Shown in pieces: positions 1 through 19,821 of a stretch of DNA of 64,000 nucleotides. Made by a program: the position numbers and the translations under genes. The stretch lies in assembly GCF_017301735.1 (NCBI RefSeq), contig NZ_CP071090.1:3214001-3278000 (forward strand), given 5' to 3'. Within the stretch, counting starts at the first letter, position 1. Each line of letters begins with the position of its first letter. The notes under the pieces were generated by a model. That model saw only the letters and a program-made list of their open reading frames with translations. It was not told where the DNA came from and searched no databases. This DNA comes from Pyxidicoccus parkwaysis (GTDB lineage Bacteria > Myxococcota > Myxococcia > Myxococcales > Myxococcaceae).

Positions 1-978
1 CCCGCGCACGTGCGCCTTGGTCAGCACCAGTGCACGCAGTGCCTCCAGTCCCGCGAGGTGCACGAGCCCCTCATCCGTCACTCGCGTGCTCCCCAGGTGA
101 AGCGCTTCGAGTGCGCGCAGCCCCGCCACATGCGCGAGCCCTGCGTCGGAGACCTCCGTCCGCGCGAGTCCCAGCCACGTCAGGCCAGGCATTCCATCGA
201 GCGCGACAAGGCCCGCGTTCGTCACGCGAGTCCCGCTCAGGATGAGCGTGCGCAGATGCGCTCCAGGCACGGAGACGAGGAGCGCGTCATCCACTGCCGT
301 GTCCGAGAGGTCCAGCCACTCCAGCTCCGTCTGCGCCGCGAGCAGCCCCAGTCCCTTCGTGCTCACCGCCGTGCCTGCCAACGAGACACGCCGAAGCGTG
401 GTGAGCCCGGAGAGCGAAGCGAGTCCCTTGGCGGAAACGGAAGTCTCATCCAGCCGCAGCGTGGCGAGCCGATGCATTCCCTGGAGATGGACGAGCCCGG
501 CATCCGTCACCCGGGTGCCATTGAGATGCAGCGCCTCCAGCCACGTCGCTCCCTGGATGGCGGCCAGATGCGCATCGCCGAAGCCCGTGCCGGAGAGCTG
601 GAGTGACACCACGGCGGTGCCTTCCAGCAGCGGCGTCAGCAGGGCAGGGTCAGGAAGCCCCACGTCCCCGAAGGAGAGCCCGGGCACGCGGTACTCGCGC
701 AGCACTGCGGACAGCGCGCGGGCTTCGTCCACGGTGCGCATGGGCTCCAGCGGCTCCGCGAACCAATCTCCCGAGTCAGGCGGCTGGAACGCGGAGGTGC
801 CCGGTGGCAGCACGGCCCACTCGGAAGAAGCTCCATCCGCCTGGAGCCGGTACACCTTGAGCAGGGGGCGCTGAGGTGGAGGAGGGGAGGGAGCCGGAGT
901 CGGCGCGGGAGGTGTAACAGTGGCGCAGCTCAGTGCGAGCATCAGCAGCCCAGCGAACCGCAACATCCGACAACCCAC
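1..978 (-). CDS. Leucine-rich-repeat lipoprotein, 3' end beyond the window
   Basis: The reverse strand is open from a GTG at 978 to the first base, so the C-terminus is missing (326 codons seen). I chose GTG 978 because an AGGAGGT ribosome site lies about 7 bases upstream; an ATG four codons later is the alternative. The N-terminus is hydrophobic and ends in a lipobox (LMLALSC), followed by a Pro-rich linker, so the protein is probably a lipoprotein. From about residue 120 there are at least eight repeats of 23-24 residues of the type LxxLxLxxTxVTDAGLxHLxGL, a curved LRR solenoid normally used for protein binding. No catalytic domain is visible. It diverges from the NRPS-PKS gene. The partner is unknown and nothing ties it to that pathway except position. 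It resembles LRR proteins that myxobacteria and planctomycetes carry in large numbers. Confidence 0.8.
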   Translation of the reverse strand, partial: MGCRMLRFAGLLMLALSCATVTPPAPTPAPSPPPPQRPLLKVYRLQADGASSEWAVLPPGTSAFQPPDSGDWFAEPLEPMRTVDEARALSAVLREYRVPGLSFGDVGLPDPALLTPLLEGTAVVSLQLSGTGFGDAHLAAIQGATWLEALHLNGTRVTDAGLVHLQGMHRLATLRLDETSVSAKGLASLSGLTTLRRVSLAGTAVSTKGLGLLAAQTELEWLDLSDTAVDDALLVSVPGAHLRTLILSGTRVTNAGLVALDGMPGLTWLGLARTEVSDAGLAHVAGLRALEALHLGSTRVTDEGLVHLAGLEALRALVLTKAHVRG

Positions 979-1304
979 GCAGGCACCTCCTCAAGGTCAG
1001 CGGCGCAAGCCAAGTGCTCCAGCCCGAGGGAGGTCAACGCGAAAGCGGCGGACGCAGCCAAAGAAAAGCCAGCCACCAGAAGAGTCACGGGCTCTCTCGA
1101 CTTCAGTTGGTTGGACCTCATTGCATGGACACGGCCATGAGGCCTTCTCGGTGGGCCGTTCGGTGACCGGACAAGGGAGCCCCGGGTCGTTAGGAGTCTC
1201 TGAACAACAGCCAATGAGTGTTGGGGGTCGGCTGGCCGAAAGGCGTGTCGTCCCGAACCCAGCCCCATTGCAGCGCACGTCGTTCCCGACCCACCTGAGG
1301 GTGA
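979..1304. other. Intergenic region between divergent LRR lipoprotein and NRPS-PKS genes
   Basis: These 326 bases must hold the promoters of both divergent genes. I found no convincing -35/-10 or sigma-54 element on either strand. A GAGG ribosome site lies at 1297-1300, just before the NRPS-PKS start. A short reverse-strand reading frame (942-1121) crosses the region but has weak codon bias and overlaps the lipoprotein start, so I do not call it a gene. Confidence 0.6.
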
Positions 1305-4300
1305 ATGCCGCATCCTGTTGAGTCGCAGTCCCACCACGCCACGGGCCTGGAGTCGGGCAGCGGGCGCCTCTCGTACAACCAGCAGGCACTGTGGTTCGCC
1401 TCCAAGCTGGACCCCATCGCGTACAACCTCGCGTACGGGTTCCGACTCCGAGGCGCGTTGGACCCGGAGTTGTTGCGGCGCGCGCTGTCGCTCCTCGTGG
1501 CGCGGCACCCCGTGCTCCGCACGACGTTCTCCGAGACGGAGCGCGGCCCGCAGCGGGTCCTCCATGACCGGATGGACTTCGCGTTCCAGCACGTCGAGGC
1601 GGCGCACCTCGACGAGGCCGCCATGCTCCAGCGGCTGTATTCCGACGCGGCCCGCCCCTACGACCTCCAGCACGGGCCGGTGCTCCGAAGCGCGCTCTAC
1701 GCGCTCGGCCCGGACGAGCACGTGCTGCTGCTGGCCTGCCATCACCTGTCGCTCGATGGCAGCTCGCTGAGTCTGCTGCTCCAGGACCTTCAGCGGAGCT
1801 ACGCCGCCGTGGCCAGCGGTCGCGAGGCCAGCCTCGGGCCCCCGCCCACGCGGGACTATGACGAGTTCGTCCAGTGGCAGTCGCAGTGGCTCGCCAGCGC
1901 CGAGGGTGAACGGGCACGCACCTGGTGGCGCGAGCAGCTCGCGGGATGCACACCGGTGCTGAACCTGCCGACGGACCGCCCCCGGCCGGCCCGGCAGAGC
2001 TTCCGCCAGCACACCCACGTGATGACGTTGGACGAGTCCCTGGCTAAGGCACTCGCGGCGCTGGCGAAGGAGGAGGGCACCAGCCTCTATGCGCTGCTGC
2101 TCGCGGCCTTCCAGGCCCTGCTTCACCGGCACAGCGGACAGGAAGATTTGTTGGTGGGCGTCCCTTCCTCGGGGCGCGGCGAGGAGTGGCACTCCCGGGT
2201 GGTGGGGTATCTCGTCAACACGCTGGCCGTGCGCTCCCGAACCCCGGCGGACATGCCCTTCCGGTCCTTCCTGCGGAACACCGCGCGCACGCTGCGCGAG
2301 GCGCTGGTCCATGGCAGCTACCCGCTCCCCAAGGTGATTGAAGAGCTGAAGCCGCCGCGCGACGCGGGCCGCTCGCCGCTCGTGCAGGCGACGTTCACCC
2401 AGATGCCGCGCCTCCGGCTCGACGCGGCCGCGGAGCCGCCCCCGTTCGAGCTCGAGCGACTCACCGCCTCCAACGTCGGACTGGCCGGCGACCTCTCGGT
2501 CCACGTCCACGCCACCCGCGATTCCGGGACGCAGCTGCTCTGGGCCGTGAATGCCGATGTCTTCGAGCCGGCCACCGTGGAGCGCCTAGCCGCGCGCTAT
2601 GTCACGCTGCTGGAGTCTCTCCTCACCGGGCTCGACCAGCCCCTCGCCGCGCTGCGCCTGCTCCCGCAGGATGAGGAGCACCAACTCGTCGTGGAGTGGA
2701 ACGAGACTGCGACGGACGTCGAGTCGGAGGTCTGTCTCCACGAGCTGTTCTCCCGGCAGGTGGCGCGCACGCCGGACGCCGTCGCGCTCCTGTTCGAGCG
2801 CGAGGCGCTGACGTATCGGGAGCTGGACGCGCGCGCCAACCGCCTCGCCCACCGCCTGCGGCGGCTTGGCGTGGGGCCCGAGGTCCGCGTGGGCCTGTGC
2901 GTGGACCGCTCGCCGGAGCTGGTGGTCGGGCTCCTCGGAGTGCTGAAGGCGGGGGGCGCCTACGTCCCACTCGACCCGGCCTATCCCACCGAGCGCCTCG
3001 CCTTCATGGTGGAGGACGCGCGGCTCACGGCCCTCGTGACTCAGCGCTCCCTCTCGGAGCGGCTGCCCGCGAGCGAGGCCTCGCGGCTCTTCATCGGCTC
3101 GGGGGACGAGGACCTGACGGGCCCCTGCGCCGCGCCCGAGAGCGGCGTGGGTCCTGGCAACGCGGCCTACGTCATCTACACCTCGGGTTCGACGGGCCGG
3201 CCCAAGGGCGTCACCGTCGAGCACCGCCAGGTCAGCAACCTGCTCGCGACGCAGCCCCGGGTGCTTCCTCTCGGACCGGGGGACACCATGCTCCAGTTCG
3301 CCTCGGTGAGCTTCGACATGGCGGTGCAGGAGGTCTTCTCCGCGCTCGTCTCGGGGGCCACCCTCTGCCTCGCGCGGCGGGAGTCGCTCGTGCCCGGGCC
3401 GGAGCTCGCGAGCCTCCTGCGAGAGCGGCGCATCTCCGCCGCCATCCTCTCCCCGTCAGCGCTCGCCGCGCTACCCGCGGGGGACTATCCGGCCCTGAAG
3501 GCCATCATGGTGGGCGGCGAGGCCAGCCCGGAGTCCCTGGTGGCGCGCTGGAGCGCCGGCCGCCGCTACATCAACGGCTACGGGCCCACCGAGGCCACCA
3601 TCTACGCCACCTGCACGCCGTGCACCGCGGGCGCGCCGGTGACGCTGGGCCGGCCCATTGGCAACGTACGGGTGTACCTGCTGGACGCAAGGCTCCAGCC
3701 GGTGCCGCGCGGAGTGGCGGGCGAGCTGTACATCGGAGGCGACGGCGTGGCGCGCGGCTACCTGGGCCGCCCCGAGCTGACCGCCGAGCGCTTCATCCCG
3801 GACCCCTTCGGTTCCTCGTCCGGGGGCCGCCTGTACCGGACCGGCGACCTCGCGCGCCATCTGCCTGATGGCCAGCTCGAGTTCCTCGGGCGGGTGGACC
3901 ATCAGGTGAAGCTTCGCGGCTTCCGCATCGAGCTCGGGGAGATTGAGTCCGGGCTGCGCGCGTACCCGGACGTGCGCGACGCAGTGGTGCTCGCGCGGGA
4001 GGAGCCCTCCGGTGGGAAGTTCCTCGTGGCCTACACGGTGGCGCACGAGGGCCGCGCGCTGGAGGAGTCCGGGCTGCGGGCCTTCCTCAAGCAGTCCCTG
4101 CCCGAGTACATGGTGCCCTCCGCCTTCGTCGCGTGCGAGCGCCTGCCACTGACGTCCAACGGAAAGGTGGACCGCGCGGCACTGCTCGCCATCCCCGTCC
4201 AGCGGACGCGCGCGCCCCGTTCGCGTCCGCCTGCCAACGAGGCCGAGCGCACTCTCGCGCGCATCTGGCAGGACGTCCTCCAGCTCGACCGGGTCGGCGC

Positions 4301-7300
4301 GACGGAGAGCTTCTTCGACCTCGGTGGACACTCGCTGCTGCTGACGCAGGTGCGGGCCCGGGTGGCGCAGGCCTTCGGCCGCGAGCCGTCCATGGTGGAG
4401 CTGTTCGAGCACGTCACCATCGAGTCCCTCGCGGCGCACCTCTCCGCCTCGCCCGCGCCGGAGCTCCCGCGTCGCACGGTTCTGCCCCAGACGGCAGGGG
4501 AAGGCGCGGTAGCCATCATCGGCCTGGCCGGGCAGTTCCCGGGGGCGAAGGACCTGGAGGAGTTCTGGCGCAACCTCGCCGCGGGCGTGGAGTCCATCTC
4601 GCAGCTGAGCGCCGAGGCGCTGGCCGAGGCCGGTGTCCCCGCCGCGCTGTCGGGCCGCTCCGGGTATGTGCGGGCCAAGGGCGTGCTGGAGGGCGCGGAG
4701 CTGTTCGACGCGGACTTCTTCGGCATCAACCCGCGCGAGGCGAGCCAGATGGACCCGCAGCAGCGGCGCTTCCTCGAGTGCGCGTGGGAAGCGCTGGAGG
4801 ACGCGGGCTATGCGCCCCAGACGCACGACGCCCCCGTCGGCGTCTTCGCCACCTCCAGCGCGACGAGCTACCAGCCGCTCCCGCTCTCCTCGGAACCCGC
4901 TGACGCCTACCAGCTCAAGCTGGGCCTGGAGAGCGACTTCCTGGCGACCCGCGTCTCCTACAAGCTGGACCTGCGTGGGCCCGCCATGACGGTGCGCACG
5001 GGCTGCTCGGGCTCGCTCGTGGCGGTGCACCTCGCCTGCCGCAGCGTGCTCTCCGGCGAGTGCGAGCTGGCGCTGGCGGGAGGCGTGGCCATCTCGGTGC
5101 CGCTGGCGGGCGGGTACGTCTACCAGCCCGGGATGATTCTCTCTCCCGACGGCCACTGCCGGGCCTTCGACGCTCGGGCCGGGGGCACGGTGCGGGGAAA
5201 CGGCGTGGGCGCCGTCGTGCTCAAGCGGCTCGACCGGGCCCTGGCTGATGGGGACACCATCCACGCGGTGATTCGCGGCTCCGCCCTCAACAACGACGGT
5301 GCGGGCAAGCTCGGCTACACCGCGCCGAGCATCACCGGACAGGCCGAGGTCATCCGCCGGGCGCACGACGCGGCCGGGGTCCTGCCCCACGAAATCTCGT
5401 TCGTGGAGACCCATGGCACGGGCACGCCGCTGGGGGACCCCGTCGAGGTCGCCGCACTGGCGAAGGCCTTCCAGCGTGGCACCGGCCCCCGAGGCTCCTG
5501 CGCGCTGGGCGCCACCAAGCCGAACATCGGCCACCTGGACTCGGCGGCGGGAATCGCCGGGCTCATCAAGACGGTGCTCAGCCTGCGCCATCGCCAGCTC
5601 CCGCCCGTCGTGCACTTCGAGCAGCCGAATCCCGCGCTGGGGCTGGAGGGGACGCCCTTCTCCGTCAACGCGCGGCTCTCGGACTGGACTCCGCCCGACG
5701 GCCTGCCGCGCATCGCCGGGGTGAGCTCCTTCGGCATCGGCGGCACCAATGCCCACGTCGTGGTGGCCGAGGCTCCGGCCATGGCCTCCGTGGAGGAGAC
5801 GGAGGGCTGGCGTGTGCTGCCCCTGTCCGCGCGCACTCAAACGGCGCTCGCCGCGACGGCGAGGCGCCTGGGGGAGGCCCTGGCCTCGCGGGCGGAGGTG
5901 TCGCTGGCCGACGTGGCCCACACGCTCCAGCAGGGGCGGACCGCCTTCGAGCAGCGCACGGCGCTCGTCTGCCGGGATGTGCCGGGCGCGGTGCGAGAGC
6001 TGGAGCGACTGGCGCGTGAGCTCTCGGAAGGTGAGCGCTCCGCGAGCGTGGCTCGGGGCAGGGAAGTGGTGTTCCTGTTTCCGGGGCAGGGCGCGCAGCA
6101 TCCCGGCATGGCGCGCGGGCTCTACTCCGCCCACGCCGTCTTCCGTGCCGAGGTGGACCGGTGCGCCGAGCTGCTGCTGCCGCACCTGGACCAGGACGTG
6201 CGCGAATGGCTCCTGCTGGAGGACGCCTCCGACGAGCGCATCCATCAGACGGCGCTCGCGCAGCCCTGCCTCTTCGTCATCGAGTACGCGCTGGCCCGCC
6301 TCTGGATGTCCCTGGGGCTGACTCCGGCGGCGATGGTGGGCCACAGCCTCGGGGAGTACGTGGCCGCCTGCCTCGCCGGTGTGTTCTCGCTGGAGGATGC
6401 ACTGGGGCTCGTCTGCGCCCGGGGCCGGCTGATGCAGGCCGCGCCCCCTGGAGCCATGCTCGCCGTCGGGCTGGACGCAGACGCCTTGCGCCCGCTGCTC
6501 GACGAGCATCTCTCCATCGCGGTGTACAACGCGCCCGCGCAGACGGTGGTGGCGGGCCCGGTGGAAGCCATCGCCGGGTTGCAGCGGCGGTTGGAAGCGC
6601 GAGGCACTGGATGCAGGCGCCTGCGGACCTCGCACGCCTACCACTCGCCGCTGATGGACTCGGCGCTGGAGCCGTTCGCCGATCAGGTGCGGCGCATCCG
6701 GCTCGCGGCACCGGGCATTCCCCTCGTCTCGAACGTCACGGGGACCTGGATGACGGAGGCGCAGGCGATGGATCCGGACTCCTGGGTCCAGCACCTGCGC
6801 CAGCCCGTGCGCTTTGCCCAGGGACTGGCGTGTCTGCTGGAGGGGCCGGAGCGGCTGCTGCTGGAGGTGGGCCCGGGTCAGGCCCTGGGCGGGCTCGTCC
6901 GCCAGTGCCCGGGGTTCGGCGCGTCCCATGCCGTGCTCGCGTCGCTTCCCAACCCGCGCACCCGGGCCGATGACGTGGAGTTCTTCCTGGCCCAGGTGGG
7001 CGAGGCGTGGAGCAATGGGGCGACGGTCGACTGGCGGGGACTGACTCCGGGCGAGCGGGGCCGGCGCGTCTCGTTGCCGACGTACCCGTTCGAGCGGCGC
7101 CGATATTGGGCCGAGCAGGTGGGGTCACACGCCGTTGCGCCGCTGGCGCCCACCGGCCGGCGATTCGAGGAGTCGGTGCCCGTCCTTCCGGTATCCACGA
7201 GCGCCCCCCACACGGACGCGGACCCCACCCACGAAGCCCTGACGCGCATCTGGCGCGAGCTGCTGGGCATCAGCGCGATGGGCCGCCACGATGACTTCTT

Positions 7301-8249
7301 CGACCTGGGTGGCCACTCGTTGCTCGCCGTGCAGCTCGGCACCCGGATTCGCGAGACGTTTCAAATCGACTTTCCCCAGCAGCGGGTGCTCGAGCACCGG
7401 ACGATTGCGCGGCAAGGCGCGTTCATCCAGGAGGCCACCCGCGGTGCACCAGTTCCCAGGGACTCGTCGCTGCTCGTCGAGCTGAACCGGGGAGACGCCC
7501 GCCGGCGCCCGCTCTTCCTGCTCCATCCGGTGGGCGGCACCGTCTTCACGTACCAGGCGCTGGCGCGCATGCTCGATCCGGGCCTTCCCATCTACGGCGT
7601 GCGCGCGCGAGGGTTGGAGCCCGGGGAGGCCCTCGCGGGGAATATCGAGAGCATGGCGGCCCTGTACCTGGAGGCCGTGCGCACCCGGCAGCCGTCCGGG
7701 CCCTACCTGCTCGCGGGGCACTCCTTCGGAGGCGTGGTGGCCTACGAGATGGCTCAGCAACTGCTCGCGAGGGGCGAACAGGTGGAGCAACTCGTGCTCA
7801 TGGACACGCCCGGCCCCGGGCAGATGCCGGTCAGCCTGGGCTCGCCTGAGGAGATACAGGAGTACTTCCGCCGCATGGCGCCCGAGCTGTTCCGCGAGCT
7901 CTTCCTGCGGCCCACCGGACACGAGAGTTCGCTGGAGACGTTGCTGCCTCGTAGCGAGGTGTTCCTCCGGGTGTTCCAGGAGAACGCCGCGGCCATGTTC
8001 GCGTACGCCCCGCGTCCGTATGCGGGCCGGCTCGTCTTCTTCCATGCCCGGGAGCGGGATGCCACCAACCCACCGCACCCCGAGCTGGCGTGGATTCCGC
8101 TCGCCACCGAGGGTGTCGAGGTCCACGTCGTGCCCGGCAACCACGTCACGATGCTGGCGGAGCCCCACGTCCGGAGCCTCGCGAGGAAGCTGCGCGGAGC
8201 GTTGGAGGAGCGAGCCGAGGCGCGCTCGGAGCTTGCGAGGACAGGCTGA
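1305..8249 (+). CDS. Hybrid NRPS-PKS, single protein: C-A-T-KS-AT-T-TE
   Basis: This 2314-residue megasynthase carries one peptide module and one polyketide module. Condensation domain: about 17-450, HHLSLDG at 146-152. Adenylation domain: about 480-960, YTSGSTGRPKG at 625-635. Carrier: Ser1010 in FFDLGGHSLL. Ketosynthase: about 1068-1490, Cys1234, His1370, His1410. Acyltransferase: GHSLGE at Ser1681 and HAYH at 1777-1780, closest to the malonyl-type HAFH. Second carrier: Ser2005. Type I thioesterase: GHSFGG, Ser2140. There is no KR, DH, ER or methyltransferase, so the extension should leave a beta-keto product. By-eye alignment to GrsA gives specificity residues D-M-Q-L-M-G-G-I-Y, matching no standard code I recall. 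The ketosynthase cysteine sits in TGCSGSL rather than the usual DTACSSSL. The leading C domain implies an acyl donor made elsewhere. No transporter, PPTase or tailoring gene is adjacent, so this looks like a one-gene pathway. Confidence 0.96.
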   Translation: MPHPVESQSHHATGLESGSGRLSYNQQALWFASKLDPIAYNLAYGFRLRGALDPELLRRALSLLVARHPVLRTTFSETERGPQRVLHDRMDFAFQHVEAAHLDEAAMLQRLYSDAARPYDLQHGPVLRSALYALGPDEHVLLLACHHLSLDGSSLSLLLQDLQRSYAAVASGREASLGPPPTRDYDEFVQWQSQWLASAEGERARTWWREQLAGCTPVLNLPTDRPRPARQSFRQHTHVMTLDESLAKALAALAKEEGTSLYALLLAAFQALLHRHSGQEDLLVGVPSSGRGEEWHSRVVGYLVNTLAVRSRTPADMPFRSFLRNTARTLREALVHGSYPLPKVIEELKPPRDAGRSPLVQATFTQMPRLRLDAAAEPPPFELERLTASNVGLAGDLSVHVHATRDSGTQLLWAVNADVFEPATVERLAARYVTLLESLLTGLDQPLAALRLLPQDEEHQLVVEWNETATDVESEVCLHELFSRQVARTPDAVALLFEREALTYRELDARANRLAHRLRRLGVGPEVRVGLCVDRSPELVVGLLGVLKAGGAYVPLDPAYPTERLAFMVEDARLTALVTQRSLSERLPASEASRLFIGSGDEDLTGPCAAPESGVGPGNAAYVIYTSGSTGRPKGVTVEHRQVSNLLATQPRVLPLGPGDTMLQFASVSFDMAVQEVFSALVSGATLCLARRESLVPGPELASLLRERRISAAILSPSALAALPAGDYPALKAIMVGGEASPESLVARWSAGRRYINGYGPTEATIYATCTPCTAGAPVTLGRPIGNVRVYLLDARLQPVPRGVAGELYIGGDGVARGYLGRPELTAERFIPDPFGSSSGGRLYRTGDLARHLPDGQLEFLGRVDHQVKLRGFRIELGEIESGLRAYPDVRDAVVLAREEPSGGKFLVAYTVAHEGRALEESGLRAFLKQSLPEYMVPSAFVACERLPLTSNGKVDRAALLAIPVQRTRAPRSRPPANEAERTLARIWQDVLQLDRVGATESFFDLGGHSLLLTQVRARVAQAFGREPSMVELFEHVTIESLAAHLSASPAPELPRRTVLPQTAGEGAVAIIGLAGQFPGAKDLEEFWRNLAAGVESISQLSAEALAEAGVPAALSGRSGYVRAKGVLEGAELFDADFFGINPREASQMDPQQRRFLECAWEALEDAGYAPQTHDAPVGVFATSSATSYQPLPLSSEPADAYQLKLGLESDFLATRVSYKLDLRGPAMTVRTGCSGSLVAVHLACRSVLSGECELALAGGVAISVPLAGGYVYQPGMILSPDGHCRAFDARAGGTVRGNGVGAVVLKRLDRALADGDTIHAVIRGSALNNDGAGKLGYTAPSITGQAEVIRRAHDAAGVLPHEISFVETHGTGTPLGDPVEVAALAKAFQRGTGPRGSCALGATKPNIGHLDSAAGIAGLIKTVLSLRHRQLPPVVHFEQPNPALGLEGTPFSVNARLSDWTPPDGLPRIAGVSSFGIGGTNAHVVVAEAPAMASVEETEGWRVLPLSARTQTALAATARRLGEALASRAEVSLADVAHTLQQGRTAFEQRTALVCRDVPGAVRELERLARELSEGERSASVARGREVVFLFPGQGAQHPGMARGLYSAHAVFRAEVDRCAELLLPHLDQDVREWLLLEDASDERIHQTALAQPCLFVIEYALARLWMSLGLTPAAMVGHSLGEYVAACLAGVFSLEDALGLVCARGRLMQAAPPGAMLAVGLDADALRPLLDEHLSIAVYNAPAQTVVAGPVEAIAGLQRRLEARGTGCRRLRTSHAYHSPLMDSALEPFADQVRRIRLAAPGIPLVSNVTGTWMTEAQAMDPDSWVQHLRQPVRFAQGLACLLEGPERLLLEVGPGQALGGLVRQCPGFGASHAVLASLPNPRTRADDVEFFLAQVGEAWSNGATVDWRGLTPGERGRRVSLPTYPFERRRYWAEQVGSHAVAPLAPTGRRFEESVPVLPVSTSAPHTDADPTHEALTRIWRELLGISAMGRHDDFFDLGGHSLLAVQLGTRIRETFQIDFPQQRVLEHRTIARQGAFIQEATRGAPVPRDSSLLVELNRGDARRRPLFLLHPVGGTVFTYQALARMLDPGLPIYGVRARGLEPGEALAGNIESMAALYLEAVRTRQPSGPYLLAGHSFGGVVAYEMAQQLLARGEQVEQLVLMDTPGPGQMPVSLGSPEEIQEYFRRMAPELFRELFLRPTGHESSLETLLPRSEVFLRVFQENAAAMFAYAPRPYAGRLVFFHARERDATNPPHPELAWIPLATEGVEVHVVPGNHVTMLAEPHVRSLARKLRGALEERAEARSELARTG

Positions 8250-8296: not shown

Positions 8297-8324
8297 AGCC
8301 CGGGGCGTCGCAGTGCCCCGGGCT
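8297..8324. terminator. Bidirectional intrinsic terminator
   Basis: A perfect 10-bp stem (8297-8306 with 8315-8324, AGCCCGGGGC) has an 8-base loop. On the reverse strand it is followed by a run of T from the ATAAAAA at 8291-8297, a classical terminator for the lipoprotein gene ending at 8349. On the forward strand it lies 47 bases past the NRPS-PKS stop but has only a weak T stretch. Confidence 0.85.
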
Positions 8325-8348
8325 CTTCACATCATCGAGTACGCTGTC

Positions 8349-9299
8349 TTACTGCGCGGAGACAGTCATGTTCGCGGTGCCCCTGACAAAGCCAGAGCTC
8401 TGCATTTGATAGCTCCGCAGAATCACGGGCGCGCTGGCAGTGAAGGGGCGCGCGGCGGGCATCTGCTGTTCGTCTACGACCCCAGAGACCACCATCGTGT
8501 CTGCCATTTCCAGCAAGAAGGGAGAGGTCACCGAGTCGCCTTCGCGGAAGAGCTCGAAGTTGGAGAACCTGATGACTCCCTCCGCAGCTCCGAAGACGTC
8601 GAAACGCACCCGAGCGCCCTGCAGCGAGGGCGCGATACGGTCGTGGATCAGTGTCGAGTAGGGCCCCCCGAACTGCACGGTGATGGGGCCGGTCTCCACG
8701 CGGATGAACTTGGTGTACTGCTCGTTGACTCGAGTGACCGTGGACGTACTCCAACTGATGACGAAGGGCAGGCTGGTCCCCCCGAGCGGTTCGAGGATGT
8801 TCGGAGGCCCGGGAAACACCGGATCGAAGTCGAGCGTACCGGCCATCCACCCCGCCGTGTCCACCGTGATGCCCACGTCCGCGGTGGCATTGCCGGGCGT
8901 CTTGAAGATGAACCGCACCGCGCGCGTCTGCCCCTCATCGAGGGAGAACGCCATCGGATTGGGAGAGATCAGGCTGGCCTGCACCGTCTGACCCGGCGCA
9001 TCCGTGCGCTCGAGGTGCCACTGCCCCTCGAGCCGGATGGAGTACGCGCCCGCCGGCAGCACCACGCTCACCGTGTCCGGCGACGTGTCCGAGATGTTGA
9101 CCGACTTGGGCCCCGTGATCGCGAACGTCGCCCCCACCAGCCGGTACTGCACCCCCTCCGACGTCGTCGACGTCATCGGCAGCTGCACCACGCCCTCGCC
9201 GGCCTGGGGCACCACGGGCTCCGACTTCTCCACCGGCGCCCCGCCGCACGCCGCCATCAACAACGCAATAGCAACCAGACTGAAATTGAACTTCCGCAT
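8349..9299 (-). CDS. Predicted lipoprotein of unknown function
   Basis: The 316-residue product begins with a short charged stretch, a hydrophobic segment and the lipobox LMAACGG (Cys18), so it should be lipid-anchored. The rest is rich in beta-forming Thr, Val and Ser with no recognisable enzyme motif. Phrases such as VVLPAGAYSIRLEG resemble the beta-sandwich folds of secreted myxobacterial proteins, but I do not recognise a family. An AGGAG ribosome site lies 6 bases before the ATG, a TTGACA promoter lies just upstream and a strong terminator just downstream, so it is a well-bounded single-gene unit. It converges on the NRPS-PKS gene. Confidence 0.88.
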   Translation of the reverse strand: MRKFNFSLVAIALLMAACGGAPVEKSEPVVPQAGEGVVQLPMTSTTSEGVQYRLVGATFAITGPKSVNISDTSPDTVSVVLPAGAYSIRLEGQWHLERTDAPGQTVQASLISPNPMAFSLDEGQTRAVRFIFKTPGNATADVGITVDTAGWMAGTLDFDPVFPGPPNILEPLGGTSLPFVISWSTSTVTRVNEQYTKFIRVETGPITVQFGGPYSTLIHDRIAPSLQGARVRFDVFGAAEGVIRFSNFELFREGDSVTSPFLLEMADTMVVSGVVDEQQMPAARPFTASAPVILRSYQMQSSGFVRGTANMTVSAQ

Positions 9300-9321
9300 T
9301 GGAACTCCTGGAGAGGCGCGG

Positions 9322-9351
9322 ACCCTATTTTTCGAGGGTTTGTCTTGTCAA
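9322..9351 (-). promoter_or_regulatory. Housekeeping-type promoter of the lipoprotein gene ending at 8349
   Basis: Read on the reverse strand, a perfect TTGACA (9351-9346) is followed after 18 bases by TAGGGT (9327-9322); ATAGGG with a 17-base spacer is an alternative -10. It lies 20-50 bases ahead of the lipoprotein start and is AT-rich for this genome. Confidence 0.55.
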
Positions 9352-9422
9352 ATGAGAGACATTGGGGTCGCCTCGGACCCCGACGCGTGGCCATGGAAGG
9401 CTGGTAGAAAGCCCGCCCACCG

Positions 9423-9992
9423 ATGACCCGCGAGTGGCGCATGACGTCTGGAAGAGGGCGCTGGCTGACAAGGATGATCCGCGCGGCGCTCCCGCTCGCA
9501 GCGCTGGCCCTGCCCGCCGTGGCCATGGCCGACGACACGCCGTACTACGCCGACCGCCGCGCGCTCTCGCTGATCCTCGGCCCGGGCGCCTCCTATACGG
9601 AGTACATCAAGTCGAGCGACAACGACGCGGAGTCAGGACCCGACGCGCACCTGGACCTCATGGGCACCCGGACGGTGGGCTACGACGGGAATGAGATCTA
9701 CGTGCTGATCCGCGGCAGCGTGCGGAACCTGGATCTCGCCGTCGGCGGCGGCTACCGGAACTTCTTCGGCAGGGACGCGTGGCAGTCCTTCTTCGACGTC
9801 GGCGTGCTCGTGAGGCCGTTTTCTGGGCCGTGGGTGGGGCCTCGCGTAGGGTTCGGCGTCAGACACACCTTCTCCGAGCGGCTCGCGGTGTTCGGCGGGC
9901 TGGGGATCACGCTCGGATTCGGATCAGGCCTGCGCGGGGATGCCGAAGCCTTCACCGGGGTGCAGTGGATCTTCCCGGTCGGATCGCAGTGA
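9423..9992 (+). CDS. Small predicted outer-membrane beta-barrel protein
   Basis: The product is up to 189 residues. A hydrophobic segment ending AVAMA-DD looks like a cleavable signal peptide, but it is preceded by about 17 charged residues. The true start may therefore be the internal ATG at 9474 (MIRAALPL); neither start has a clear ribosome site. The mature part alternates Gly/aromatic strands (for example the VGGGYRNFFGR region and FGVRH), typical of small 8-stranded barrels of the OmpA/OmpW kind. No family is recognised with certainty. It stands alone between a divergent lipoprotein and the ribbon-helix-helix gene. Confidence 0.75.
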   Translation: MTREWRMTSGRGRWLTRMIRAALPLAALALPAVAMADDTPYYADRRALSLILGPGASYTEYIKSSDNDAESGPDAHLDLMGTRTVGYDGNEIYVLIRGSVRNLDLAVGGGYRNFFGRDAWQSFFDVGVLVRPFSGPWVGPRVGFGVRHTFSERLAVFGGLGITLGFGSGLRGDAEAFTGVQWIFPVGSQ

Positions 9993-10053
9993 GAAAAAAT
10001 TGCGATCCACGAGGTCTGTGAGAGGGTGTGCGCATCTGTAGGAGGTCGCGCAC

Positions 10054-10218
10054 TTGGACATGAATCCCCGCCTCACCTCGGTGGTCTTCCGGCTCAACCG
10101 CGAGAAGCTCGACGCCCTGAAGGAGCTGTCGCGCTCCACGCGCATCCGTCAGAGCGAGTACCTGCGGGAGGCCATCTCGGACCTGCTGGCGAAGTACGAG
10201 GAGCGGCTGGTCGACTGA
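10054..10218 (+). CDS. Ribbon-helix-helix DNA-binding protein, 54 residues
   Basis: A short frame reads MDMNPRLTSVVFRL from a TTG at 10054; a GGAGG lies 8 bases upstream, whereas the in-frame ATG at 10060 is 14 bases away, so TTG is preferred. The N-terminal strand (TSVVFRL), then helix-turn-helix with RIRQSEYLREAI, is the layout of CopG/Arc/MetJ-type ribbon-helix-helix proteins, in which the strands of a dimer enter the major groove. No toxin gene is adjacent, so it is more likely a free-standing regulator than an antitoxin. Its targets are unknown. The family call rests on pattern only, but coding is well supported by codon bias and ribosome site. Confidence 0.82.
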   Translation: MDMNPRLTSVVFRLNREKLDALKELSRSTRIRQSEYLREAISDLLAKYEERLVD

Positions 10219-10245
10219 AGACCGCCGCTCGGACTCCGCCGCGCG

Positions 10246-11091
10246 TCACTCTGAAATGAAGGGTGGCTCGCGCGGCAGCCCCGGAGGGTGGAGGCGCTCT
10301 CCGGCGGTGAAGGGGTCCAACCCGGGAGGGTAGCGCACCTCCCAGAGCACCAGGCCAGGCGCGGGCGCCTTGAAGCCCTCCATGGCCGTCCCCGTCTCCA
10401 GCGCTGCCTTCCACGCATCTTCCGGCAACAGGCCCGCCGCCACCTTCAGCGCGCTCCCCATGAGGTAGCGCACCTGGTAGCGCGCGAAGCCGTCTCCGCT
10501 CAGCCTCGCCTCGTAGAGCCCTCCACCCAGCGCATGCAGGGTGGCGAACTCCAGGGTGCGCGGCTTGCGCGGGCTGGACTTCTCGTGGAAGGCGATGAAG
10601 TCCCTCGTCCCCACCGCCTGCGCGAGCAGCGCCTCCAGTCGCTCCGGCGTCACCCGCACGCCCTGGAGCAGCGGCTCGTCGCGCACGTCGAAGGCATACG
10701 GCGCCCACGCCGCGTCGGCCGGCCCGCCCAGCCGCACGCGGTAGCGGTACGCCTTGCCGCTCGCGCTCCACTGCGCATGGAAGGAGCCGGGCCGGCGCAC
10801 CGCGCACAGTCCCAATCCCGGAGGCAACCGGGGATGCAGCCGCTTCTCCAGGGCCTCCGCCGAGTCCCCCGGCTCCAGCCGCACGCTCACCACCTGCATC
10901 CGCGCGTGGACGCCCTTGTCTGTGCGCCCCGCCGGCATCACGGTGGCAGGCACGCCGACGGAGGCCAGCGCCTCCTCGAGCGCCCCCTGCACCGTGGGGC
11001 CCTCCGGCTGACGCTGGAAGCCGCGGAAGTTTCCGCCGCGGTACCAGATCCACAGTGCGACGGGAATCCGCTTGGAAGTCGAGGGGAGCAC
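10246..11091 (-). CDS. truA: tRNA pseudouridine synthase A
   Basis: The 281-residue product matches TruA, which converts uridines 38-40 of the tRNA anticodon arm to pseudouridine. The catalytic motif is AGRTDKGVHA with the nucleophilic Asp at residue 58; most homologues have A where this has K after the Asp. Later hallmarks include RYQVRYLMG near residue 200, the RNA-binding half. Length is normal for the family. The start is a GTG at 11091 with no clear ribosome site; no better start lies downstream. It is divergent from the GYF/AgmX-tail gene with 44 bases between them. Confidence 0.95.
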   Translation of the reverse strand: MLPSTSKRIPVALWIWYRGGNFRGFQRQPEGPTVQGALEEALASVGVPATVMPAGRTDKGVHARMQVVSVRLEPGDSAEALEKRLHPRLPPGLGLCAVRRPGSFHAQWSASGKAYRYRVRLGGPADAAWAPYAFDVRDEPLLQGVRVTPERLEALLAQAVGTRDFIAFHEKSSPRKPRTLEFATLHALGGGLYEARLSGDGFARYQVRYLMGSALKVAAGLLPEDAWKAALETGTAMEGFKAPAPGLVLWEVRYPPGLDPFTAGERLHPPGLPREPPFISE

Positions 11092-11135
11092 GGCGTTGCG
11101 AGGGTGTGGGGGAACACGGGATACTCGCGCGCGAA

Positions 11136-12077
11136 ATGGCGGCCGGACAAGACTTTGCGGTGGATGTGGAAGGACACTGGCTCTTCCGACAGGGGGACCT
11201 CGTCCTGGGGCCCGTGAGCGGCGGGCAGATTGTCGCGAAGCTCGACGCGGGAGAGCTGACGCCGGACACCCCGGTGGCGCCCGCGGGTGAGCGCAACTTC
11301 CTGCGCATGGCGGACGTGGATGCCTTCCGGGTGCACGTGGCCCGCGCGGAGGCTCGCGCCCGCGTGGACGCCGCCGTCGCCGTGGAGCGTGAGAAGTCCC
11401 GCAAGCGCCTGACGTACCTCGGCGCCGGCGCGGGCGTCATGGTGGTGCTGCTCGGCGTCGGCGGCCTGTGGGTGGCGCGCAACGCCGCCGTCCATGGCTG
11501 GCTCGGCGGAGGAGAGGAGGAGTTCGAGGGCATCGAGATGGACCCGCCCACCATCCGCCTCGCCCAGGCCCGCGCCGACGACGAGGAGCTCTTCGAGTAC
11601 CCCACCAACGGCACCCACCGCCCGGCGGGCACCGAGTCCGGCACGAAGCCCGCCAACGGCAGCACCGGCGCGAATGGCACCGGCACCGGCAAGACGGCGG
11701 TGGCGTCGACCACCCGCGTCGACCCCAAGCGCCCGCGCCCGACGGGCAACGTGAGCACGGACCCGGACGGCCTGGAGATGACGCAGCAGTTCGACCAGAC
11801 CGTCATCAACAAGGTGGTGGCCGGCAACAAGTCCACGCTCTTCAAGTGTCTGAAGGAGGAGGCCGAGCGCACTCCGGGTCTCTACGCGAAAATCCCCCTG
11901 GAGTTCGTCATCGGCAACGACGGCAAGGTGTCCAAGCTCTGGGTGGACAACCCGCAATTCAAGAAGGGCCCCCTCTACGACTGCCTCTTCGCCGAGCTGC
12001 AGAAGTGGCCGTTCCGCGCGTACGAGGGCGAGCGCGCCACCGTGGGCCTTTCGTTCACCATCGGTAAGCGGGGGTAG
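11136..12077 (+). CDS. GYF-domain membrane protein with AgmX/PglI-type C-terminal domain
   Basis: The longest frame begins at 11055, inside the divergent truA gene, so I take the ATG at 11136 (MAAGQDFAVDVEG), giving 313 residues. Residues about 10-65 (HWLFRQGDLVLGPVSG) match the GYF_2 fold. One membrane helix lies at about 95-115. A Gly/Thr/Asn-rich linker follows. The last 90 residues, with the paired cysteines of FKCLKEE and YDCLFAEL, match the C-terminal domain shared by many myxobacterial proteins named after the gliding proteins AgmX and PglI. The topology suggests a cytoplasmic GYF domain and a periplasmic tail. Whether this copy acts in motility cannot be told from sequence. Confidence 0.85.
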   Translation: MAAGQDFAVDVEGHWLFRQGDLVLGPVSGGQIVAKLDAGELTPDTPVAPAGERNFLRMADVDAFRVHVARAEARARVDAAVAVEREKSRKRLTYLGAGAGVMVVLLGVGGLWVARNAAVHGWLGGGEEEFEGIEMDPPTIRLAQARADDEELFEYPTNGTHRPAGTESGTKPANGSTGANGTGTGKTAVASTTRVDPKRPRPTGNVSTDPDGLEMTQQFDQTVINKVVAGNKSTLFKCLKEEAERTPGLYAKIPLEFVIGNDGKVSKLWVDNPQFKKGPLYDCLFAELQKWPFRAYEGERATVGLSFTIGKRG

Positions 12078-12104
12078 GGTCACTTTCTTGCCCACCCCCC
12101 GGGC

Positions 12105-12758
12105 ATGGCCGATACCAAGGCCATGTCCGCATCCGTTGCCGAGACTGAAATCGCGAAGAAGGCGCTGAGCGTCCCGCCGGGGACCTTCCGTCACACCGTG
12201 CTGGTGGCGGCCAAGCGCTTCAAGTCCACCTGGGCCGAGCTGGGCCAGCTGCTCGTGCAGGTCCGGGACGAGGCGAAGTTCGAGGAGTGGGGCTATCCCA
12301 CCTTCGAGGCCTACTGCCTCAAGGAACTGCACATCAAGAAGCAGACCGCCCTGAAGCTCACCCGCTCGTTCAGCTTCCTCGCCAAGCACGAGCCCGAGGA
12401 GGAGCTCAAGGCCCAGGAGTTCCCCGAGAAGGCCCCGGCCTTCGAGGTCATTGAGGTCCTGGCCGACGCGGAGGAGCGGGGGCAGCTTTCACCCAGCGAG
12501 TACCGCTCCCTGCGCGACAGCATCTGGAGCCCGGAGAAGTCTCCGACGGAGCTGAAGAAGGAGTTCACCGAGCGCTTCCCCCGGCCGGCCCCCGAGCCTC
12601 CTCCCGAGAGCGCCCAGGTGCGCAAGCTGGCGCAGATGGCCCGGAAGCTCGCCAGTGAGCTGGCGGGGTGCCGTCGGATCCCGAACGCCGTCGCCGAGCG
12701 AGCGTCCGCCCTGGCGGAGGACGTGGAGGACATTGCCGCGGGCGTGACGGACGCCTAG
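12105..12758 (+). CDS. Uncharacterised cytoplasmic protein with helix-turn-helix-like segment
   Basis: This 217-residue protein lies 27 bases after the GYF/AgmX gene and may share its transcript. It has no signal or membrane segment and is mostly helical and charged. Residues about 45-85 (EEWGYPTFEAYCLKEL, then HIKKQTALKLTRSF) resemble the helix-turn-helix of plasmid-type proteins that begin with a tryptophan-rich preamble, but the match is loose. A Pro-rich break (PRPAPEPPPES) separates this from a C-terminal helix. I do not recognise the family. Codon use is ordinary for the region. Confidence 0.8.
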   Translation: MADTKAMSASVAETEIAKKALSVPPGTFRHTVLVAAKRFKSTWAELGQLLVQVRDEAKFEEWGYPTFEAYCLKELHIKKQTALKLTRSFSFLAKHEPEEELKAQEFPEKAPAFEVIEVLADAEERGQLSPSEYRSLRDSIWSPEKSPTELKKEFTERFPRPAPEPPPESAQVRKLAQMARKLASELAGCRRIPNAVAERASALAEDVEDIAAGVTDA

Positions 12759-14337: not shown

Positions 14338-17300
14338 TCAGGCCGCGGCGCCGGACTTGGAGGCGATGGGGGCGGGCAGGGTGATGATGAACTCGGCGTA
14401 CTCGCCGGGCGTGCTCTCCACGCGGATGTCGCCCTGGTGCTCCTGGACGATGTCGTGGACGAGCGACAGTCCCAGGCCGGTGCCCACTCCCGCGGGCTTG
14501 GTGGTGAAGAACGGGTGGAAGAGCTTCTCGCGCACGTGCTCGGGGATTCCGGAGCCGTTGTCGCGCACGCGCAGCTCCACCTTGTCACCCAGGCGCTTCG
14601 TGCGGACGGCGACATGCGGCGTGTAGCCAGCGCCCCCCGCCTGCTGCTTCTGCACCGTGGCGTAGAAGGCATTCTCCAGGATGTTGATGAGCAGACGGCT
14701 GATGTCACTGGCCACCAGCTCCACCGAGCCCACGGCCGGGTCCAGCTCGGACTGCGTCTCCACACTGGCGCCGCCCGAGCGGCTGCGCAGCCCCTGCACG
14801 GCGAGGCCCAGGCTGTCGCGCACCAGCGTGTTGAGGTCCGCGCGCGTGCGCGTCCCCTCGGAGCGGCGCGAGTGGCGCAGCATCGTCTTGATGATGTCCG
14901 ACGCCCGCTTGCCGTGGGTGTGGATGCGCTGCGAGTTCTGGCGCAGGTCCTCCAGCAGCTCCATCACGTCCCGCATCGCGCTCGCGTCCAGCGAGCCGGA
15001 CAGGCCGCGCAGCGACTCCTCCAGCTCGCCGGCCAGCCGCGTGGACAGGTCCGAGAAGTTGTTCACGAAGTTGAGCGGGTTCTGCAACTCGTGCGCGATG
15101 CCGGCGGTGAGCGCGCCCAGCGACGCGAGCTTCTCCTGCGCGACGAGCTGGCGCTGCATCTCCTGGAGGCGCGTCAGCGTCTCCGCGAGCTCCGCGTTCT
15201 TTCGCTGAATCTCCGTGGTGCGCTCCTCCACCCGGCGCTCCAGCGTGCGGCTGTAGTCCTCGAGGCTGGCGTAGAGGCCGGCGTTCTCCAGGGAGATGGC
15301 GGCCTGGAAGGACAACAGGCGCAGCACCTCCAGCCGCTCGCGGGTGAAGGCTCCGCGCGTGGCGTCGTTCTCCAGGTACAGCACGCCGGTGAGCGAGCCC
15401 TGCTTCAACAGCGGGCTGCACAGCACGGACTTGGGACGAGCGGTGCGGATGTACGGGTCCTCGGAGAAGGGCTCCTCCGCCGCCGCGTCGTGCAGCAGCA
15501 CCGTCTCTCCCGTGCGCACCACGTAGTGGATGATGGACGCCGGCAGCGCGGTGGAGGACTCCACCGGCACGGCCTGCTCCACCACCACGTCGGCGCCGTC
15601 CACCGAACCCTCGGCTTCGATGAAGAGCCCCTCCTGCTTCTTCAGGATGAGGAAGCCCCGCCGTGCGCCCGCGTTCTCGATGACCAGTGTCATCAACTTG
15701 CGCAGCAGCTTGCCCAGGACGATTTCGCCGGACAGCGCGCGCGCCGTCTTGAGCACCGACTCCAAATCCAGCGCCGCCAGCGGAGTTCCGGCCGCCTCCT
15801 CGGCACGCACGGGGCTGGCGGGTGCGGTGGGCAACAGGCGCGGATGCTCGCGCTCCAGCCGAGTGGCGACGGCGCGACCACCCCAGCGCAGGAAGGCGTC
15901 TCGCGCTTCCACGAGATAGGTCCGTGCCACGGCCTCGCGGCCTTCCGTGAGGTGGAAGCGAGCAGCGGCCTCGCAGGCCACACCCTCGTCGAGCGAAAGG
16001 CCGTACTGCCGGGCCAGGCGGATGGCGCGGTCATAGCCGTCGGCAGCGGCGTCCTTCTCTCCGTCCAGACGGGCCCGCTCCGCGTCCAGCAACTCCGCTC
16101 GCGCGCCGTAGTTCATGGGCGCGATGCGGGCCCAACCGCGCATCGACTTGCGGATTGCATCGATGGAACGCGTGGCACGCAGCCGCTCCAGCGGGCCCCG
16201 CGATGGATGGAGCGAGATGAGCGCCAGCGCCTGGAAGAACTTGTACCAGGGCAGGTAGATCTGCCCGGCGATGAGCTCCACCTGCGCGTCCACGGCTTCG
16301 GCGCTCGCCAGCGTGCCGCGCACATCGCCCCAGAGCCAGCGGCGCAGGGTGCGCAGCACGTCGCATGTGGCGATGCCATTCGCGTAGCCGAGCTGCCGGT
16401 ACGGCGCGACGATTTCCTCCTCGCGCGCGTCCACGTCGCCGGTGAAGGTGCCGGTGAGGGCGTCGAGCGTGTGCCGCATGTACTCGACGAAGGGCACGTT
16501 CTTGTGCCGGTGCGCGGCGAGCGCATCGCGGTAGCGGTCGATGCGCGGGCCGCCCTCGGCGAGGCCATCACGGGCGATGAAGGACGTGGCGCAGCCGGCG
16601 CTCGCGGCGTAGCCGAAGTACTCGATGTCGCCCATCTCCTGTCCCTTGCGGGCGGCGGCGAAGAAGTCCTCGATGCAGGCGGAGAGCGGCTCCTTCCAGT
16701 GACGGATGAAGAGGTTGAAGACGAACGTCACCATGGACCGCAGGCTCTCCGCCTGGAAGCGGTCCAGCGTCTTCAACGAGAGCCGGCCATAGCGGAAGCC
16801 CTCCTCGGGATTGCCGAGGTGCACGCTGAGCATCAACCCGTAGCCCACGTAACCGAAGGCGGCCACACCCGTGGCGCCATGGCGGATGGTGAGCTGGAGG
16901 ATGCGCAGCACCACGAGCGGGAACAGCAGCGGCCGCGCCATGAAGGCCACCGACGACAGCTTCACCAGCAGGCGCAGCGTGGCCAGCAGCAGCGGGTCCG
17001 TACACTCGGGCAGGGCCTCGAGGTCCTCGGGCTTGCGCAGACCGAGACGCAGCTTCGTCTTCGCCACCGCGGCGAGCACATGCGGCTGCTTGGGATTCGC
17101 CGGCAGCGGCTGGCCCAGCTTGCGAAGCACTTCGAGGCCCAGGTCCACGCCTCGCGCGTGCTCGCCCCGGTGCGCGTAGCACTGGAGCCGCACCTCCTGC
17201 ACCCGCACCTCTTCCGCGCCGTCCGCCGCCCGGGAGAGCGCCGCCGCGGCCAGACGCTCCATCAAGTCGAAGTCCGCCGCGAGGTAGGCCGCCTCGGCCG

Positions 17301-19665: not shown

Positions 19666-19821
19666 CGCTTCCACCCATGCGCGCAGGGGCGCATCCCCCG
19701 TGAGAGGAACGAGGCTAGCCCTGGCCTCCAGGGGTCGCAACAACACGCCCGCCCGTCGGGCGCGCACGCCTGGCTCCCGGGAGTGGAGCGCGCGGCTCGG
19801 GTATGCGATGCATGCAACACG

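Follow-up and report, generated by a model that had tools for sequence, protein, structure and literature searches.

A single plus-strand gene near the start of a 64,000-nucleotide stretch of the Pyxidicoccus parkwaysis genome (contig NZ_CP071090.1, positions 3,214,001 to 3,278,000; hereafter the window) encodes an NRPS-PKS of 2314 aa with the domain order C-A-T-KS-AT-T-TE (Table 1). We propose, tentatively and at somewhat less than an even chance, that it is a self-contained line for an N-acyl amino-acid-derived ketide released as an N-acyl aminomethyl ketone. The C domain would take an acyl chain, from an acyl-CoA or from an acyl-ACP made elsewhere, with which the one amino acid on the first carrier would be acylated; the KS and a malonyl AT would then add one acetate unit without reduction, and the TE would free an N-acyl-gamma-amino-beta-keto acid that would lose CO2 to give the N-acyl aminomethyl ketone, as in the coralinone synthase CorA. 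Activation would come from a PPTase encoded at another site in the genome, and the product would probably be exported by a DHA2-family pump whose gene adjoins the synthase gene in two relatives but is unlinked to it in this genome.

The single-protein architecture that the earlier note had read from the letters was confirmed by Pfam domains and intact motifs. The matches covered aa 22–462 (Condensation), 482–820 and 879–954 (AMP-binding and its C-terminal part), 1068–1312 and 1320–1439 (the two ketoacyl-synt parts), 1589–1870 (Acyl_transf_1) and 2068–2297 (Thioesterase), along with two PP-binding stretches, the better one at aa 983–1046. The checked motifs comprised HHLSLDG (aa 146), YTSGSTGRPKG (625), YRTGD (844), NGKVD (952) and DLGGHSL (1005 and 2000) in the C, A and T domains, TGCSGS (1232), HGTGT (1370) and NIGH (1407) in the KS, GHSLG (1679) and SHAYHS (1776) in the AT, and GHSFGG (2138) and GNH (2278) in the TE, and were identical in all three orthologs, the window gene counted. 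HAYH together with GHSLG in the AT presumably marks malonyl-CoA specificity, so that a malonyl extender unit is predicted from the motif. Eleven Pfam families were matched at E 0.001, with KR, DH, ER and MT models not among them, which agrees with the non-reducing PKS module and beta-keto product claimed beforehand. The codon-position GC of 0.75/0.50/0.91 is the profile of a real gene. Four PF01648 (PPTase) matches were found elsewhere in the genome.

Table 1. Features of the synthase gene and its immediate surroundings (window coordinates).
Feature	Position	Strand	Basis
Single-gene NRPS-PKS, C-A-T-KS-AT-T-TE, 2314 aa, ATG start	1305..8249	+	ORF, Pfam, motifs
Condensation domain, acyl-initiating type by phylogeny	1368..2690	+	PF00668, 306.6 bits; tree of 131 C domains
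Adenylation domain, code DMQIMGGIYK	2748..4166	+	Pfam, A-code alignment
First carrier domain (T/PCP)	4251..4442	+	PF00550; DLGGHSL at aa 1005
Ketosynthase, Cys-His-His present	4506..5621	+	PF00109/PF02801; motifs
Acyltransferase, malonyl-type motif HAYH	6069..6914	+	PF00698; motif
Second carrier domain (T/ACP), limits approximate	7212..7424	+	second PP-binding stretch; DLGGHSL at aa 2000
Type I thioesterase, Ser and His motifs present	7506..8195	+	PF00975; motifs
Presumed promoter and leader; 5' region shared with both orthologous loci	1146..1304	+	nucleotide homology from 1146 (L101) and 1155 (L022)
Divergent neighbour, LRR protein (606 aa in full, runs past window start); left edge of variable locus	1..978	-	
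Convergent neighbour, 316 aa, no Pfam family	8349..9299	-	homologs on truA side in L022, G006, G020, G026
11-bp G+C-rich hairpin between convergent genes, A-run before, T-rich tail after; possible two-way terminator	8297..8324	.	fold

A query with the TE identified orthologs in two of the 26 other genomes of the genus that were compared, those of Pyxidicoccus caerfyrddinensis CA032A (G022, TE 93%; locus L022) and of G009 (TE 95%; locus L101), so that the synthase is present in 3 of 27 genomes, the window's included. Over the full length the window protein shared 90.2% identity with the L022 ortholog and 90.8% with that of L101. Nucleotide homology extended over window positions 1155–8197 against L022 and 1146–8213 against L101, taking in some 150 leader bases and almost the entire gene. 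Values of dN/dS (NG86) were 0.249 and 0.243 for the window gene with its orthologs and 0.245 for one ortholog with the other; in each of the three pairs the TE had the lowest value of all domains (0.092, 0.144 and 0.125). These low ratios, lowest for the TE, indicate purifying selection on the gene, strongest on the release step.

The C domain had been called loading-competent in the earlier note, and its phylogeny sustains this. A tree was built from 131 C domains of the retrieved NRPS/PKS loci and three Sinorhizobium records, leaving out matches under 330 aa or with no A domain after them and counting ORFs at a contig end or following another synthase as first-position. The window domain fell in a 20-member clade (support 0.997) of which 12 members were first in their ORF, seven stood directly after a FAAL-like ligase and one followed a PKS carrier, whereas none of the 25 internal NRPS domains belonged to it. 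As 10 of the 12 first-in-ORF members were the window synthase, orthologs of it, or relatives that have the same order, are split or are cut by a contig end, the independent support consists of the seven FAAL-fed, the one PKS-fed and two other domains. The six clade ligases tested, out of seven, scored 424–461 bits with the fatty-acid-AMP-ligase model NF004509 (below its cut-off of 775) against 146–156 bits with amino-acid adenylation (cut-off 317.4). As a point against an acyl-initiating type, the nearest solved C domain was Txo1 (224.7 bits), and CDA-C1, which we take to be a starter C domain, was distant at 77.5 bits. Clustering with first-position and FAAL-fed domains to the exclusion of internal ones makes it likely that the window C domain takes an acyl chain. 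The myxobacterial starter domain Crz1-C1 is described as accepting octanoyl-CoA, with an acyl-ACP proposed as its natural donor (PMC11342130). The window's genome held 12 FAAL-like matches, none above the model cut-off.

The A-domain code was DMQIMGGIYK in the window and L101 and DMQVMGGIYK in L022. The same alignment yielded familiar codes elsewhere (e.g. DVWHFSLVDK, DILQLGLIWK and DFWNIGMVHK), which supports the reading; the code and its spelling variants had no match in the main texts of the open-licence literature. Pockets for proline and other imino acids have hydrophobic residues at positions 278 and 299, and Gln239 is found in DAQDLGVVDK, a code for Gln/Glu, as well as in proline codes. 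In the latter it is combined with Val236 (59 cases), and an azetidine code, DMQLVSQQVK, has been reported (PMC12283262). Set against the proline pattern, the window code has Q239, I278 and M299 but M236. Its similarity to codes known to us was highest for Pip and Orn (21 each), then Pro and Ile (20 each), and Orn led in identical positions (5 of 10, with 3 for Pro). An imino acid is thus possible but weakly supported as one of several candidate substrates read from the code. The window A domain grouped mostly with A domains that feed KS-AT-T-TE ends (supports 0.72–0.94), near the last A domain of A-T-C-A-T-KS-AT-T-TE genes of Corallococcus and Nannocystis (13-member clade, 0.831).

In the window's genome, Pfam analysis of the neighbours showed no transporter, PPTase or tailoring gene adjoining the synthase; beyond the convergent neighbour lie truA and then clpX. 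A plus-strand ORF at 8313–9407 was considered as a cotranscribed partner and set aside, codon-position GC favouring the overlapping minus-strand gene. The hairpin between the convergent genes folded with a z of −1.76 (9 of 200 shuffles folded equally well) and was absent from the terminator-scan list, and a promoter scan found no sigma-70 consensus in the presumed promoter and leader. The earlier note would have given up its one-gene pathway had cotranscribed tailoring genes turned up beyond the window; across the 15 kb preceding it, eight ORFs were scanned, which encode regulators, APS kinase, ThiF and others, and include no such gene and no transporter, PPTase or synthase partner. Pfam likewise recognized no peptidase family (cf. 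corB) among the scanned neighbours, and no MucABC-like C-3 acetylation genes from about 11 kb upstream to 13 kb downstream.

A giant Ser/Thr kinase-AAA-GAF-histidine kinase is encoded at 14338–20049, 6 kb from the synthase. Its type has at least seven strong matches in this genome, in ORFs of 1786–1962 aa (150 of 396 candidates scored), and a kinase of the same make stands directly upstream, on the same strand, of same-order synthases in two of the loci described below (L031 and L038). Since most of the kinase stretch is missing at this spot in both L022 and L101, no regulator role is claimed for it. A separate cluster about 25 kb upstream (L121:1232-17873, G000:C1 at about 3.174–3.191 Mb) comprises FAAL-T-C-A-T and two PKS genes; it was discarded as an acyl donor because a C domain and modules of its own are part of it. 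Two lone KS-AT-T-TE genes (L109:8402-12169 and L110:9315-13124) also occur in this genome, each oriented against the NRPS genes beside it.

The synthase lies on the same side of truA in all three genomes, while its surroundings vary. In both L022 and L101 it is followed by four minus-strand genes, which encode an MFS pump, a DUF4215 protein, a 440-aa product and a kinase-STAND protein. These roughly 9 kb are absent from the window's locus, and the pump was the element of them that was sought elsewhere. On the upstream side, the synthase of L101 is preceded on its own strand by a histidine kinase ORF (L101:8269-9774) that stops 216 bp short of it, and the L022 counterpart of this kinase (6470–7840) is cut off from the synthase by two minus-strand ORFs. 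The L101 kinase means that opposed genes do not flank the synthase in every genome. Two divergent lipoxygenase-family genes lie about 4–9 kb upstream of the synthase in both relatives (L022:995-5163 and L101:2125-6293); the families were identified in L022, and the two loci share 95% nucleotide identity there. Among synthase-free congeners, five complete junctions were read and a sixth (G011) ended at a contig edge. The LRR gene is joined directly to the truA side in G019 and G021, the DUF4215-440-kinase block is present with a homolog of the 8349 gene and no pump in G020 and G026, and in G006 that homolog is accompanied by a 262-aa ORF. Gene content between the LRR gene and truA (window 1–978 and 8349–12758) is variable across the genus, and three genomes have the NRPS-PKS there.

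The L022 pump is a DHA2-family efflux permease of 476 aa (TIGR00711, 285.5 bits, cut-off 230.2), convergent with the synthase and separated from its end by 45 bp in L022 and 25 bp in L101. The absence of adjacent partners noted beforehand is therefore true of the window's genome and not of G009 or P. caerfyrddinensis; likewise, the expected isolated, conserved copy is seen as a single gene in both close relatives, but with the pump adjoining in each and with the same-strand kinase in L101. Pump orthologs (93–100%) and the synthase share one distribution, 3 of 27 genomes, and in all others identity to the pump is at most 41%. The window genome's ortholog (93%; G000:C1:12310980-12312362) is unlinked to the synthase and stands alone, its 1.4 kb alone matching the sister loci and its neighbours being an alpha/beta hydrolase gene and genes with no evident link. 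As the three genomes are related, the co-occurrence of synthase and pump does not amount to three independent events. We infer that the two genes entered the variable spot together in the Pyxidicoccus lineage; in the lineage of the window's genome the block would later have disappeared and the pump have changed place, an order of events reconstructed from the present arrangements. By association, the pump probably serves the synthase product.

In the open-licence literature the domain string of the window gene was found in PMC10979478 alone, there as part of the CorA string, and no product of the window gene was found. CorA, the coralinone synthase of Corallococcus exiguus SDU70, is described in that paper as a one-gene A-T-C-A-T-KS-AT-ACP-TE enzyme: corA alone gave coralinones in E. 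coli BAP1, its PKS part made the product from a dipeptidyl-SNAC and malonyl-CoA, and the proposed route passes through a beta-keto acid with spontaneous loss of CO2 (PMC10979478). Judged by the published domain order, the window gene shares with corA its nature as a single myxobacterial gene, the A-T-KS-AT-ACP-TE tail, the non-reducing PKS ending in a TE and, by prediction, the beta-keto acid. CorA differs in beginning with an amino-acid-loading A-T and having two A domains, and its free-amine dipeptidyl beta-keto acid goes on to a pyrazinone; the window protein, with its one A domain and an acyl-type C domain at the N-terminus, is expected to give neither a free amine nor a pyrazinone. It thus resembles CorA with acyl loading in place of the first amino-acid module. 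As the coralinone survey demanded two A domains (PMC10979478), one-A-domain relatives such as the window gene lay outside it.

Single genes of 8.6–9 kb with the CorA domain order were observed in Nannocystis and Corallococcus (L026, L029, L047 and L089). The idea that such A-T-C-A-T-KS-AT-T-TE loci are FAAL-primed was rejected, the first A domain being a true amino-acid A in L026 and L029, the two tested. In a TE tree the window TE fell outside these four CorA-like TEs, a point against the CorA analogy, although support is weak (0.595). Strict monophyly of the KS-AT-T-TE tail was not supported: 15 of 19 such KS domains fell in a 30-member clade (0.83) that included 12 classed as "other" and three further non-reducing KS.

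The same order was present as a single ORF on Sinorhizobium plasmids (L106, L107 and L108) and in two gammaproteobacterial MAGs (Hahella/Pseudomonadales; L031 and L038). Seven Sinorhizobium records had a one-piece match, and the three examined each encoded the C-A-T-KS-AT-T-TE protein in one ORF (about 2375 aa). L106 and L107 also have MFS genes nearby, of DHA2 type in L106, as well as transposases. C-domain identity to the window was 34% (L106), 26% (L031) and 28% (L038), and the A codes (DAFGKGSVYK, DAYLIGAIVK and DAFLVGAVWK) and neighbours differ. We know of no product of these ORFs. Myxococcus sp. RHSTA-1-4 (L079) has adjacent C-A-T and KS-AT-T-TE ORFs with a C domain in the window's clade; it differs in being split in two and in its code, DGWWTASVCK, which we take to be Trp-like. 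With the same order in Sinorhizobium and the MAGs, and split in L079, the architecture is not unique to the window gene.

The second precedent is the mutanocyclin pair MucD and MucE, whose reutericyclin counterparts are RtcN and RtcK; by domain order, both pairs have the starter C domain, one amino-acid module, one non-reducing PKS module and TE of the window gene, which resembles MucD and MucE fused. Both pairs differ in consisting of two proteins, in having no cis AT, in using leucine, in the acetylation genes of their clusters and in their firmicute hosts. The window protein adds a cis AT to this order; its front part is like that of Muc, and its tail is common to CorA and Muc. MucD is reported as C-A-PCP with a starter C and MucE as KS-ACP-TE, and in vitro MucE converted a decenoyl-D-leucyl thioester, not the L form, with malonate to an N-acyl tetramate by lactam formation (PMC10161427).

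Both precedents, equally close in domain order, bear on the fate of the beta-keto acid, which is predicted here by analogy. The earlier note had offered a tetramic acid or a decarboxylated ketone, and each proves to have a model, in MucD/MucE (PMC10161427) and CorA (PMC10979478) respectively, although the tetramate depends on the amino acid. In the former case the TE would close the ring, the amide N attacking the thioester to give an N-acyl tetramic acid without C-3 decoration, as with MucE. We regard this outcome as possible but less likely than the ketone. The shared domain order of MucD and MucE, the lactam formation shown in vitro (PMC10161427) and the position of the TE as the most constrained domain of the synthase speak for it. 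Ring closure needs an N-H amide, however, and the A code allows an imino acid, a substrate with which no closure in the manner of MucE could occur. Moreover, MucE is described as active on the D-leucyl substrate only (PMC10161427) and the window gene has no E domain, which MucD also lacks; the scanned neighbours contain no recognizable MucABC-like acetylation genes, and in myxobacteria the route taken by CorA leads to a free beta-keto acid. Because the myxobacterial sibling CorA gives a ketone and an imino acid would bar the lactam, the methyl ketone is tentatively ranked above the tetramate.

A decidedly unlikely alternative is that the synthase is one module of a longer pathway, receiving an acyl- or peptidyl-ACP from another megasynthase for a larger hybrid molecule. 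The genome is rich in possible donors, with no fewer than 111 C domains (a count that comes from scoring 111 of 168 candidates and does not include the C domain of the window gene) and ten FAAL-like matches (407–455 bits) in ORFs of 1399–14490 aa, one such match being in the NRPS-PKS cluster about 25 kb upstream. Against this, that cluster carries its own C domain and modules, all three genomes have a convergent gene downstream of the synthase and two of them a divergent one upstream, the upstream gene of the third (L101) is the histidine kinase at 216 bp and not an NRPS or PKS gene, and the synthase stays intact while its surroundings differ between genomes. That the synthase has become silent or useless here on separation from its exporter, as the loss of the adjoining pump and roughly 9-kb block might suggest, is very improbable given its intact frame and checked motifs, dN/dS values (0.249 and 0.243) like that of the ortholog pair (0.245) and the 93% pump ortholog kept elsewhere in the genome.

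Returning to release as an N-acyl aminomethyl ketone, a fuller version can be entertained as an unlikely, more speculative extension. The gene would be a one-gene route to an N-acyl imino-acid methyl ketone of the acylated acetylpyrrolidine or acetylpiperidine type, a coralinone-like small lipid signal or morphogen with a dedicated DHA2 exporter, synthase and pump having been acquired together in Pyxidicoccus and later separated in this genome.

The synthase is a compact test object, one 7-kb gene with no adjoining tailoring and with two precedents that predict different products, and the system could reveal how the choice between hydrolysis and lactam formation is made by a TE acting on an acyl-aminoacyl beta-keto thioester. 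A survey restricted to two A domains misses relatives with one, and a gene may look partnerless merely because its likely exporter sits elsewhere in that genome. The relocated pump and the two rival precedents are what make this synthase worth expressing.
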